This document shows positions 5,606 to 34,305 of a DNA stretch of 36,371 nucleotides, piece by piece (within the stretch, counting starts at the first letter, position 1; every line of letters begins with the position of its first letter). The stretch comes from Acidobacteriaceae bacterium. GTDB taxonomy: Bacteria > Acidobacteriota > Terriglobia > Terriglobales > Acidobacteriaceae. The notes under the pieces were generated by a model that worked only from the letters and a program-made list of their open reading frames with translations, had not been told where the DNA came from and searched no databases. A program made the position numbers and the translations under genes. The stretch lies in the NCBI GenBank assembly GCA_003165795.1, contig PMWW01000175.1, positions 1 to 36,371 of the forward strand, given 5' to 3'.

Positions 5606-5682
5606 GCGCCCGTAGCTCAGCTGGATAGAGCGAACGCCTCCGGAGCGTTAGGTCGGGAGTTCGAATCTCTCCGGGCGCACCA
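5606..5682 (+). tRNA. tRNA-Arg (anticodon CCG)
   Basis: A complete cloverleaf can be drawn. The acceptor arm is GCGCCCG/CGGGCGC with discriminator A5679 and an encoded CCA at 5680-5682. The D stem is GCTC/GAGC. The anticodon stem is AACGC/GCGTT with loop CTCCGGA, giving anticodon CCG at 5640-5642, which reads CGG (Arg). The T arm is GGGAG/CTCTC with loop TTCGAAT. It has its own TATAAT upstream. The secreted-protein gene starts only 31 bp after the CCA, so the two may share a transcript. Confidence 0.97.
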
Positions 5683-30697: not shown

Positions 30698-30803
30698 CTT
30701 TCCTCGCCCTGGCACGCATCCTCTACCATTGTGCACGCACACTTCCCGGAAACTTAATCCCTCTCGCAGTAGTCTAAAATCAGTAGGTAACCTGATCGCA
30801 GTG

Positions 30804-31865
30804 ATGAAACGCATTCTTATCTTCGTTGTCTTCTGCCTGACGTGTGGTGCACTCTCGTTCGCGGCCGATGGTGGCGGCGTCCTTCCTAAGTCTTTTGCCG
30901 GCTGGACGCAGTCTGGTCAAGCGCAAACTTCCGCCAACCCCGCCCAGGCTGATCCTGCATATCCTGCCGTGCTGCAGGAGTATGGTTTCGCTGATTCGGA
31001 AACCGCCACCTACACCCGCGAAGACGGACGCAAGTTGACCATCAAGGCGGCCAAATTCAACGATGCAACCGGCGCCTATGGAGCGTTCACCTTCTATCGC
31101 CAGGCGGCCATGAGGACCGAGCAGATCGGCACCAAGGCTGCCTCGGCCAACGACCGCATTCTCTTCTTCCGCAGCAACCTGCTGGTGGACGCCAGCTTCG
31201 ATCGCGTTACCGCCATGTCGGCTGCCGAGCTGCGGGAGTTGGCAGGGATGTTGCCGGCGGCATCCGGTTCCGCGGGAAATCTGCCCACTCTCCCTGAGTA
31301 TTTGCCCAAGAACGATGTCGTGGAGAATTCGGCCAAGTACATTCTCGGACCGCAGGCACTTCTGGCGGTGAAGGCGCCGCTCACCGCCGAGCAGATTGAC
31401 TTCAGCCACGATCCCGAGATTCTCATTCAGGAGTACTCCTCGAAGGACGGGCCTCTGACGTTGACTTTGCTCCAGTATCCGACGCCGCAAATCGCTGGTG
31501 CTCGTTTGCGTGCCTTGCAAAGTGCGCAGCAAGCAGCCCCGGGATCTCTGTTGGCCAGACGCAGCGGGCCACTGGTCGATGTGGTGACTGGCGCCACCAG
31601 CACGAACGCTGCGCAGACTCTGCTCAGCTCGGTGAACTACGAAGCCGAGGTCACGTGGAATGAAGCAACTTCAATCAGTAAACGCGATAACATCGGCAAC
31701 TTGATCGTTGGAATATTCGCGCTGATTGGAATCATCCTACTGATCTCTCTCATCTTCGGCGTCTTCTTTGGAGGTGTTCGCATAGTTATGAAGCGTCTTT
31801 TCCCCGATCGAGTCTTTGACCGGCCGGAGGATGTGGAGATCATCCAGCTTCATCTAAGAGAGTAG
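30804..31865 (+). CDS. probable DUF6599-family membrane-anchored protein
   Basis: 353 residues from ATG 30804, with signal peptide MKRILIFVVFCLTCGALSFA. The sequence VLPKSFAGWTQSGQAQ, then VLQEYGFADSETATYTREDG and AKFNDATGAYGAFTFYR fits the DUF6599 pattern of acidobacterial envelope proteins; this assignment is from memory of the family. A single C-terminal helix (LIVGIFALIGIILLISLIFG, about 300-320) and a short basic tail mean the body is probably periplasmic and the tail cytoplasmic. The function is unknown. A -10-like TAAAAT is at 30775-30780; the ribosome site is weak. It stands alone between the amidase gene and a noncoding island. Confidence 0.7.
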   Translation: MKRILIFVVFCLTCGALSFAADGGGVLPKSFAGWTQSGQAQTSANPAQADPAYPAVLQEYGFADSETATYTREDGRKLTIKAAKFNDATGAYGAFTFYRQAAMRTEQIGTKAASANDRILFFRSNLLVDASFDRVTAMSAAELRELAGMLPAASGSAGNLPTLPEYLPKNDVVENSAKYILGPQALLAVKAPLTAEQIDFSHDPEILIQEYSSKDGPLTLTLLQYPTPQIAGARLRALQSAQQAAPGSLLARRSGPLVDVVTGATSTNAAQTLLSSVNYEAEVTWNEATSISKRDNIGNLIVGIFALIGIILLISLIFGVFFGGVRIVMKRLFPDRVFDRPEDVEIIQLHLRE

Positions 31866-31933: not shown

Positions 31934-32004
31934 TCATTTACCGGCGGTTCCCTTAATCCATTGTAAACTATTGAAAATACAGCAATTTAAGTCCCAGAAA
32001 TTGC

Positions 32005-32033
32005 TTGACACGCACTTTCCGGAACCCTAGTAT
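32005..32033 (+). promoter_or_regulatory. strong promoter with dyad over the -10 box
   Basis: A perfect TTGACA (32005-32010), a 17-bp spacer and TAGTAT (32028-32033). An inverted repeat flanks the -10: ACTTTCCGGA (32014-32023) and TCCAGAAAGT (32037-32046), 9 of 10 paired. This placement is that of an operator. Transcription should start near 32040. Confidence 0.6.
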
Positions 32034-32039
32034 TTGTCC

Positions 32040-32123
32040 AGAAAGTTTTGACGGTCTAGCCTCCGTTGGAACTATTCTCCCTTGAAGAGAAGGCCGCCCT
32101 GTTGCCGGGTGGCCTTTTCGTTT
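32040..32123 (+). ncRNA. candidate small RNA or leader RNA
   Basis: About 85 nt between the promoter at 32005-32033 and the terminator at 32090-32123, with no reading frame of note inside. The layout is that of a free-standing small RNA. The alternative is an attenuated leader of the ABC exporter gene, whose start lies 316 bp beyond the terminator. I do not recognise it as any known RNA family. The 5' end is inferred from the promoter only. From 32124 to 32439 I see nothing I can support. Confidence 0.4.
32090..32123 (+). terminator. Rho-independent terminator
   Basis: AAGGCCGCCC (32090-32099), loop TGTTGCC, GGGTGGCCTT (32107-32116): a 10-bp stem with one G-T pair, followed by TTCGTTT. It is far from any upstream coding stop (225 bp), so it probably ends the short transcript starting near 32040. 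Confidence 0.75.
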
Positions 32124-32439: not shown

Positions 32440-34305
32440 ATGGTGGGTCCCGGCCCCTCACAACCGGCAAAGAAAACCGAAATCTTCAAGGCGCTGCCGG
32501 AAATCTGGCAGCTGGTTCGTCCACGCCGCGCACTTCTCGCCCTGGGATTGGGGTTGATGGTGATCAATCGTGTGTCCGGGTTGGTGCTGCCGGCTTCCAC
32601 CAAATACCTGGTTGACGACGTTATCGGCAAGCGGCATTTCAAACTTCTTTACCCGCTCGTGGGCATCGTACTTGCGGCAACCTTCATCCAAGGGCTGACC
32701 TCGTTTGCCCTGACGCAGACGCTTTCCAAGGCCGCGCAGAAGCTGATCGCGGAACTTCGCCGCCGCGTGCAGGAGCACGTTGGCCGGCTGTCCGTCGCCT
32801 ACTATGACGCCAACAAGACCGGCATGCTGGTCTCGCGCATCATGAGCGACGTCGAGGGCGTGCGCAACCTTATCGGCACCGGACTGGTGGACTTCGCGGG
32901 TGGACTTCTGACTGCCGTCATCGCGTTTGTGGTGCTCATGGGCATCAGCCCGGTGATGACCGCCATTGCTTTCACGTTTCTGCTGGTATTCGGTATCGGT
33001 TTGCGCAAGGCCTTCCGGGTCATCCGTCCCATCTTCCGCGAACGCGCCAAGATCAACGCCGAGGTGACAGGACGCCTCACCGAATCGCTCGGGGGTGTGC
33101 GAGTGGTGAAGGGCTATCACGCCGAGTCGCGCGAGCACGAAGTGTTCAGCGGGGGAGTCGAGCGCCTGCTGCAAAACGTGTTCAAGACCCTGACCGCAAC
33201 CTCGGTGATGAGTTTGTCGTCATCAACCCTGATGGGGGTCATCGGCGCCATCGTCATGTTCATGGGGACGCGACAGATTCTCGCCGGTAAGCTCACCCTT
33301 GGCGGATTCTTCACCTACACCATGTTCCTGGGATATCTGGCGGCACCGCTCATCCAGGTGGTCGGCATCGGCACCCAGATCACAGAAGCCATCGCCGGAC
33401 TGGAGCGTACCCGCGAAGTGCTGGACGAAACGCCGGAGAACGAAGATCCCGCCCGCACTGTCGCGCTAGGCGAGATCCGCGGCGACGTTGCCTTCCGGAA
33501 CGTTACCTTCGCTTACGAGCAACAAAAAACGGTCCTGGACGACGTCTCGTTTCACGCCCGTCCGGGAACGGTTACAGCGATGGTCGGATCGTCCGGCTCG
33601 GGCAAGTCGACCATCATTGGATTGATCGCCGCTTTCCACAAGCCCAACCAAGGCCAAGTTGTGGTTGATGGCATCGATCTCTCCACGGTGCGTCTGGAGT
33701 CGTATCGCACCCAGTTGGGAATGGTGCTGCAAGATTCGTTTCTCTTTGACGGCAGCATTCGCGAGAACGTGGCCTTCTCCAAGCCGGACGCCACCGCGGA
33801 GGAGATTCTTCGCGCCTGCGCCATCGCGCGGGTGGACGAGTTCGCGGAAAAGTACGATCTGCAGTACGACACCATCATCGGCGAACGTGGCGTGAAGTTG
33901 TCGGGCGGTCAGCGGCAACGGCTGTCCATCGCGCGAGCGATTCTGGCCAATCCTCGAATCTTGATCCTAGACGAAGCGACCTCCAGCCTGGACTCCGAAT
34001 CCGAGTCCATGATTCAGGAAGGCCTTTCGTACCTGATGCAGGGACGAACTACATTCGTCATCGCCCACCGTCTATCGACCATTCGCCGAGCCGACCAGAT
34101 TCTGGTGGTGGAAGGCGGGCGCATCGTGGAACACGGAACTCATCGAAGTTTGTTCGATCTTGGCGGACGCTACTACGAGCTTTACACCAAACAGCACGGC
34201 GTCGAAGAGAATCTCTTCCTGGCGCCGGGAGAAGGCGACACGGTGGAAGAAACCGATACCGTCGGGCCCGCCGCTGCTCCCGACCCCAGCGCTCTGCTGC
34301 GATAA
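32440..34305 (+). CDS. ABC exporter half-transporter (MsbA/MdlB-like, fused TMD-NBD)
   Basis: 621 residues from ATG 32440; a longer frame from 32284 adds unlikely residues. An N-terminal six-helix exporter domain (about 25-325; LVDDVIG, the SVAYYDANKTGMLVSRIMSD coupling region, GLTSFALTQ) is followed by a nucleotide-binding domain. The NBD has Walker A GSSGSGKST (about 383), the Q-loop MVLQDSFLFDGSIRENV, signature LSGGQRQRLSIARA (about 486), Walker B ILILDEATSSLDSES and H-loop FVIAHRLST. It probably works as a homodimer exporting lipids, peptides or drugs; the substrate is not readable. The acidic C-terminal tail (about 30 residues) is unusual but not diagnostic. The potassium-channel gene follows 85 bp later. 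Confidence 0.93.
   Translation: MVGPGPSQPAKKTEIFKALPEIWQLVRPRRALLALGLGLMVINRVSGLVLPASTKYLVDDVIGKRHFKLLYPLVGIVLAATFIQGLTSFALTQTLSKAAQKLIAELRRRVQEHVGRLSVAYYDANKTGMLVSRIMSDVEGVRNLIGTGLVDFAGGLLTAVIAFVVLMGISPVMTAIAFTFLLVFGIGLRKAFRVIRPIFRERAKINAEVTGRLTESLGGVRVVKGYHAESREHEVFSGGVERLLQNVFKTLTATSVMSLSSSTLMGVIGAIVMFMGTRQILAGKLTLGGFFTYTMFLGYLAAPLIQVVGIGTQITEAIAGLERTREVLDETPENEDPARTVALGEIRGDVAFRNVTFAYEQQKTVLDDVSFHARPGTVTAMVGSSGSGKSTIIGLIAAFHKPNQGQVVVDGIDLSTVRLESYRTQLGMVLQDSFLFDGSIRENVAFSKPDATAEEILRACAIARVDEFAEKYDLQYDTIIGERGVKLSGGQRQRLSIARAILANPRILILDEATSSLDSESESMIQEGLSYLMQGRTTFVIAHRLSTIRRADQILVVEGGRIVEHGTHRSLFDLGGRYYELYTKQHGVEENLFLAPGEGDTVEETDTVGPAAAPDPSALLR

Follow-up and report, generated by a model that had tools for sequence, protein, structure and literature searches.

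The described systems closest to the locus analyzed here are IhtA of Chlamydia and the pair Yfr1 and Yfr2 of cyanobacteria. IhtA, according to the available part of its description, is a trans-encoded small RNA (sRNA) that represses translation of the small histone-like DNA-binding protein HctA; it is conserved across the lineage, contains stem-loops, the last of which is likely a terminator, and has a 6-nt loop region that is the complement of the first 6 nt in the hctA open reading frame (ORF) (PMC3469542). Yfr1, as presented in the accessible text of PMC2190773, is a 54-69-nt RNA with two stem-loops around an unpaired, ultraconserved, pyrimidine-rich ACUCCUCACAC, and in most cases occupies a conserved locus. 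Yfr2 is a second RNA with a motif nearly complementary to that of Yfr1, for which it may be a sponge or decoy (PMC6778093, accessible text).

Here we examine an intergenic unit in a window of 36,371 nucleotides (the whole stretch of DNA that was analyzed), where an earlier note, made from the letters alone, had proposed an sRNA gene. From the comparison of genomes, we consider it probable that this locus is the gene for a trans-acting antisense sRNA that would block translation of a tiny Lys-rich, H1-like protein. By analogy, the proposed action would be most like that of IhtA, and the build like that of Yfr1, as far as the accessible descriptions of both go.

An RNA gene with a conserved fold

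The features of the locus are collected in Table 1. The unit is intergenic as reported, and its distances of 140 bp from the upstream stop and 316 bp to the ATG at 32440 both agree with the sequence. The claim of a non-coding RNA of about 85 nt with its own promoter and terminator is supported by conservation, structure and covariation, at a length of 84 nt. The fold of the sRNA has a predicted energy of -38.7 kcal/mol versus -22.0 for shuffled sequences (z -5.33; 0/200 shuffles as good), and the target-pairing segment lies partly in the 3' strand of hairpin 1. The transcribed part is conserved from the predicted start at 32039/32040 through the terminator. The terminator hairpin of the earlier note is present, with 13 pairs in the fold in place of the 10 bp claimed; it is absent from the output of a consensus terminator scan, probably because the T-tract begins within the stem.

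Table 1. Positions, in the window, of the sRNA gene, its parts and its conserved upstream neighbor
Feature	Position	Strand	Description
Upstream DUF6599 gene (PF20244)	30729..31865	+	Conserved neighbor, outside the RNA; by eye, signal-peptide-like start and C-terminal hydrophobic segment
Promoter	32005..32033	+	-35 TTGACA 32005-32010, 17-bp spacer, -10 TAGTAT 32028-32033
Small RNA, about 84 nt	32040..32123	+	Two hairpins and a pyrimidine-rich linker; from fold, covariance model and blastn
Hairpin 1	32040..32078	+	Arms 32040-32054 and 32063-32078, one bulged A
Target-pairing segment CUAUUCUCCCUU	32072..32083	+	Linker and base of hairpin 1; exact complement of AAGGGAGAATAG
Intrinsic terminator	32087..32123	+	Hairpin 32087-32119 (arms 32087-32099/32107-32119, 13 pairs) and T-rich tail

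Covariance in relatives, which had been suggested as a check, is indeed seen in the terminator helix. In an alignment of 51 rows, each with one exact 22-mer through which 45 of the rows had been found, 99.4% of the cells are paired (0/500 shuffles), and 10 pairs are changed on both sides, all of them within the terminator helix (10 of its 13 pairs). The presence of the 22-mer in every row makes the 3' arm of hairpin 1 invariant by construction; variation in this hairpin is found on the 5' side only, with 99.1% of the cells still paired, and two-sided changes are absent from it among the 51 rows. Diverged members that lack the 22-mer have changed hairpin 1 strands and retain the fold; indeed, the succession of hairpin, linker and terminator recurs in diverged relatives, some of which have a third hairpin. 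Judged by how this conserved unit of promoter, hairpin 1, C/U-rich linker and terminator evolves, namely, as RNA, the locus is a real RNA gene. The loop of hairpin 1 is GCGCAU or GCGCGU in members from f5, f7, f8, f10 and f12 (L247, L182, L271, L277, L279) and not in f1 (the family labels f1-f13 were assigned by the search tool).

The promoter, with its TTGACA -35 element and 17-bp spacing, is confirmed at 32005-32033 and scores 10/12 against the consensus. Five such sites are observed between 28000 and 36371 versus 2.4 expected, so that the promoter pattern by itself is weak evidence, and the case is carried by conservation; TTGAC[AT] is kept at -35 in 80/80 relatives (among the matches listed). 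The dyad across the -10 element also exists in the window sequence (arms 32014-32023/32037-32046, 9/10 matching), but the regulation that it was thought to suggest is unsupported. Among the matches listed, 0/80 relatives reach a match of 9, the mean best match being 5.0/10 versus 4.97 for shuffled spacers, and the dyad is thereby ruled out as an operator; its upstream arm drifts freely in these 80 relatives, and its downstream arm is conserved, being the 5' arm of hairpin 1. Just before the -35 element, an A/T-rich stretch, TTGAAAATAAAG...ATTTA (31970-32004), is conserved in many relatives and may be an UP element or the site of a regulator.

Distribution and genomic neighborhood

The source genome is 99% complete and carries the unit as a single copy by blastn, the 10 other matches being short, with E 0.69 or worse. 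By the same method, the sRNA is found in 8/9 genomes of the genus (the source genome included) and in 181/200 genomes of the bacterial family. A covariance model built from 51 relatives, with the window among its rows, gives the window sRNA 104.8 bits, a score for one of the model's own rows. In a class sample, this model matched 71/74 same-family genomes at E<=0.001 and 77/299 genomes overall; 4/6 of the non-family matches are genuine by neighborhood and reading, whereas the weak matches L185, L186 and L188 were set aside after reading as terminator-only. Phylum-wide, there are matches outside the bacterial family in 15 genomes (E 2e-5 to 1e-2), and G623, the sole one read, is terminator-only. 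The named relatives, among the matches listed, are Acidobacteriaceae, Granulicella, Edaphobacter, Acidicapsa, Terracidiphilus and Sulfotelmatobacter. Two assemblies, DAHUYD01 and JARLGE01, have two sRNA-bearing contigs each (L087 and L098; L113 and L126), indicating a second copy or a mixed bin.

The sRNA gene typically follows a DUF6599 gene on the same strand (110/120 loci, a few of which are one place counted twice). The 10 loci without DUF6599 comprise 6 with less than 770 bases of upstream sequence, 3 terminator-only matches, and L180, where the match ends further off. DUF6599 itself is present in 141/151 genomes of the class sample versus 0/14 control genomes, and its name was not found in the literature searched (most subscription papers lay outside the search). 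We further inspected 40 DUF6599 loci, mainly from families other than that of the source, and read a unit of promoter, hairpin, pyrimidine linker and terminator 3' of DUF6599 in 28 of these: f3 1/1, f4 4/4, f5 6/6, f6 6/7, f7 4/8, f8 4/4, f9 0/5 (with little sequence past the stop in one locus), f10 2/2, f12 1/1, f13 0/1 and f1 0/1 (a contig end). The f10 units are located 830-860 nt further on from DUF6599. With a second model, 15/28 units reach E<0.01; the remaining 13 (every f4 unit, five from f5 and four from f6) were identified by eye. Read-through into a shared terminator is a possible reason for the linkage. In six loci (L247, L244, L279, L277, L278 and L365, from f4, f5, f10 and f12), the sRNA is followed by a tRNA-Thr(CGT) gene; these loci were scanned because a tRNA was visible there.

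Self-regulation through the DUF6599 start was rejected: by eye, no conserved complement lies upstream of the start in 37 loci. In one of these, L183 (G295), AGGGAGAA precedes the DUF6599 start codon and includes a 7-nt complement (GGGAGAA) of the sRNA of the same genome; a few other upstream regions in this set are purine-rich.

A tiny Lys-rich gene with the complement on its ribosome-binding site

The earlier note had proposed a search for matching sequence near start codons, and such a match was found: the linker CUAUUCUCCCUU is the exact complement of AAGGGAGAATAG, a conserved 12-nt site covering the ribosome-binding site of an apparently separate gene of 20 codons, MATKKAAKKAKKAAKKSKKH, on another contig (G000:C10:85721-85732). 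This gene reads as a small separate unit with upstream hairpins and a terminator, and Pfam has no family for the 20-aa ORF of the source genome. Exact AAGGGAGAATAG occurs outside the sRNA gene in 8/9 genus genomes, with 9 matches, 8 of which are located just before the same ORF. With one mismatch allowed, 77 sites were counted by hand across the genus versus 61 for the reversed-pattern control, so that there appears to be one specific site and no general enrichment; no second genus-conserved site was found among the complement matches read.

At the family level, AGGGAGAATAG-N{2,10}-ATG was detected in 124/150 genomes versus 6 for the reversed pattern, and 27/30 of the matches fetched precede a Lys-rich ORF of 12-37 codons. 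In all 47 genomes where both genes were read, an 11-bp core is accompanied by a Lys-rich ORF of 12-24 codons; the core was required on both sides by the search and the script, and the ORF was not required. Pairing extends to the adjacent base outside the core in 35/47 genomes (permuted mean 28.9; 33/20000 as high; kinship ignored). Because the search patterns required part of the complement (AGGGAGAATAG or GAGAAT), the free tests are only those of the flanking positions and of ORF identity. The Lys-rich ORFs look translated, given that synonymous codons are used freely in 29 distinct f1 ORFs (Lys AAG 218/AAA 72, with all four Ala codons used). Many of the tiny Lys-rich ORFs (L282 at about 1380-1660; L302-L331) have an upstream hairpin, for example, CCATGAAAAATGG, and a terminator of the GGGGACGC type.

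Co-variation of the RNA and its predicted target between lineages

A class search with GAGAAT-N{3,14}-ATG-Ala-(Thr/Ala)-Lys-Lys, in which the GAGAAT flanks are free of the search condition, yielded matches in 91/299 genomes, some of them in unrelated proteins, with none for the reversed pattern among the matches listed; 23/39 f5 genomes have the pattern by hand count. From 30 loci of this search, we set aside six as unrelated proteins (L332, L333, L334, L342, L345, L347), another seven because the same-genome sRNA was not read (L343, L344, L346, L338, L339, L336, L341), and L359 as a second, 9-nt site, which belongs to a second Lys-rich gene in G418 with AGGGAGAAT.

The two partners differ in concert between lineages. 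The f1 pair joins sRNA CUAUUCUCCCUU to target AAGGGAGAATAG. In f5, the sRNA typically has UUCUAUUCUCCUCUCA and the target (T)GAGAGGAGAATAGAA or close variants, with complementary runs of 10-19 nt in 9 genomes and MAAKKKAKKKKR-like target ORFs of 11-25 codons. In f6, sRNA UGAUUCUCCC corresponds to GGGAGAATCA before H1-like ORFs (9-10 nt, 3 genomes), which span 25-97 codons in genus g121. In g32, the pair consists of sRNA UUCUCCCUGA and target TCAGGGAGAA (10 nt, 3 genomes), and the target is a Lys-rich protein of 124-131 residues with DUF6496 where scanned; assignment of this protein to HC2 (PF07382) was rejected, the match of 28.6 bits versus 40 (E 1.9e-06) being below the Pfam cut-off. In each target column, it is the matched lineage that has the greatest mean longest run (f1 11.9, g32 10.0, f5 13.7, f6 9.8), and matched sRNA-target pairs average 12.2 versus 9.7 when permuted (0/20000; 26/28 pairs, kinship ignored). 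The two pairs left out, from G113 and G058, had an sRNA that failed the pattern, and both are included in the 47-genome set. The g32 sRNA performs slightly better against f1 targets (11.2) than against its own (10.0). Thus, across the genomes compared, the predicted complementarity between the linker and the Shine-Dalgarno region is exact, conserved and co-varying between four lineages.

In g64, the sRNA has changed to CUGCCUCCCAU, and the expected ATGGGAGGCAG-N-ATG was found in 0/6 genomes; the DUF6496-like genes there have a complement of 6-8 nt only. A degenerate target search of 34 genomes from other lineages gave a match in 29 versus 8 for the reversed-pattern control, g32 alone being convincing, with no convincing target in f3, f4, f7, f8, f10 or f12. 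The linker of f4, f7, f8 and f10 has changed, as has that of g64. A 20-codon Lys-rich ORF was also seen in G437 (f2), whose sRNA was not located. L427 and L422 (g32 and g64) encode a Lys-rich N-terminus fused to a DUF6496 domain (PF20106), and L428, L433, L419, L432 and L359 resemble such a fusion by eye.

Proposed mechanism and alternative explanations

The unit has, by sequence, the own promoter and intrinsic terminator that are expected of a trans-encoded base-pairing sRNA, and a conserved antisense match at the ribosome-binding site of another locus is found in the family, f5, f6 and g32, and is missing in g64. Dependence of such sRNAs on Hfq or another chaperone is common but not universal. 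The predicted sRNA fold leaves CCCUU unpaired, with UUCU mostly bound to the 5' AGAA; upon cofolding with the target, hairpin 1 opens and a 12-bp duplex forms, for a net -13.0 kcal/mol. When limited to the hairpin arm and linker, the duplex energy is matched by at most 3/300 shuffles in each of 26 pairs, and that of the whole sRNA is no better than for shuffles (95/500 as good). We propose that the unpaired CCCU(U) of the sRNA would start pairing with GGGA of the target, and that hairpin 1 would then open at its weak base (AGAA/UUCU and the bulged A), letting the duplex lengthen to 11-12 bp (in f5, to as many as 19 bp). This duplex would block ribosome entry, and abundant sRNA would keep the tiny basic protein from being made; in this way, either the timing or the amount of a minimal nucleic-acid-binding protein would be under sRNA control.

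The same pairing could serve a type I toxin-antitoxin-like system, with a Lys-rich peptide that is harmful when over-made and the sRNA as a trans-encoded antitoxin over the ribosome-binding site. Such a system would fit the very small size of the ORF (f1, 12-37 codons; f5, 11-25) in an apparently lone unit with 5' hairpins and a terminator, the conservation of the RNA partner over the ribosome-binding site, and the near-complete g45 genomes G052, G109 and G137, which lack the sRNA match and the target pattern alike (the g45 genomes G173 and G186, both outside the target-pattern search, have the sRNA match). Type I toxins, however, are generally hydrophobic membrane peptides. The Lys-rich peptide is poly-basic instead, the sRNA and target genes are unlinked and both widespread in the family, and some targets are longer (25-97 codons in f6 g121, 124-131 in g32); we regard this explanation as unlikely. 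The chances appear still slimmer that the Lys-rich mRNA acts chiefly as a sponge or decoy, with the real targets of the sRNA being other mRNAs whose ribosome-binding site reads GGGAGAA. A pair of small, structured RNAs whose conserved motifs complement each other would be reminiscent of Yfr1/Yfr2, as described in the accessible text of PMC6778093, and the second Lys-rich gene in G418 offers another, 9-nt site; yet the ORF is kept as coding sequence, the motif lies on its ribosome-binding site, and the matches read include no second genus-conserved site.

Two further explanations were weighed. A protein-binding RNA, titrating CsrA or Hfq or acting in a 6S-like manner, with the target complement secondary, is suggested by the conserved hairpins and by a GGA that most of the members read have in hairpin 1, but GGA is lost in L181, L184 and L189 with the pyrimidine linker kept, and there is no Rfam match at the cut-off; this function is improbable. 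A cis-acting leader or attenuator of the ABC transporter gene, which lies on the same strand with its ATG (32440) 316 bp downstream, is highly improbable: the ABC gene is 3' of the RNA in 4/120 loci, all within the genus, and did not turn up in G001 or G008, also members of the genus, within the sequence available. Elsewhere, the RNA stays and is followed by other genes or by tRNA-Thr, and this loss of synteny argues against the leader. Antisense control of the Lys-rich mRNA is our preferred reading.

Implications and comparison with known systems

These observations describe an sRNA family that spans several bacterial families within one class and for which natural compensatory change backs a specific predicted target. 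Its members are carried by contigs of the cultured genera Granulicella, Edaphobacter and Acidicapsa (among the matches listed), and the partner genes include conserved ORFs of 11-37 codons, which we judge easy for annotation to miss. We somewhat favor the broader view that, across the Acidobacteriota class, the two genes would form a module in which a dedicated sRNA and the ribosome-binding site of an 11-37-residue poly-lysine protein have evolved together, be it a switch that sets the dosage of a minimal nucleoid protein or a type I-like toxin-antitoxin system of the core genome, encoded in trans and with a peptide that is cationic instead of hydrophobic. Acidobacteria are common soil bacteria. 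A 2022 review gives, in its available part, 4 distinct annotated sRNAs for this phylum (PMC9029176), and our search of mostly open papers on Acidobacteria sRNAs, DUF6599, anti-Shine-Dalgarno sRNAs and H1-like proteins found no description of this RNA or of the pair.

Among the described RNA families, Rfam 15 has no match over the sRNA at the gathering score (the window contains only a tRNA, at 5606-5679) and only tRNAs in 20 relative and target loci, so that membership in an Rfam family is ruled out. The suhB/mmgR RNA (RF00519) scores 17.3 bits (E 0.38) versus a gathering score of 41 bits and was rejected as an assignment; it resembles our RNA in the stem-loop, the CUCCCU linker, the GC-rich terminator and a weak covariance-model similarity. 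ctRNA_p42d (RF00489) was likewise rejected, with 24.4 bits, over the terminator part only, versus a gathering score of 50 bits.

The RNA shares with Yfr1, as far as the accessible descriptions go, two stem-loops flanking a pyrimidine-rich segment, a locus that is conserved in most cases, and a second RNA bearing a complementary motif. It is not a Yfr1 member: the unpaired ACUCCUCACAC motif, as given in the accessible text of PMC2190773, is absent, the segment here being CUAUUCUCCCUUGAA. It differs from the Yfr1/Yfr2 pair, again as accessibly described, in motif, phylum and targets, and its partner is a protein-coding mRNA. The likeness to IhtA-hctA, judged from the available part of that work, is one of a trans-encoded sRNA set against a small basic histone-like protein, with the repression proposed here from sequence comparison; both RNAs are also conserved within their lineages and consist of stem-loops ending in a likely terminator. 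In contrast to IhtA, the complement here is about 11-19 nt long (9-10 in f6 and g32), covers the ribosome-binding site, co-varies between lineages, and belongs to another phylum. By this analogy, our findings suggest that RNA control of H1-like basic proteins, as in the Chlamydia IhtA-hctA pair, also operates in a second phylum.
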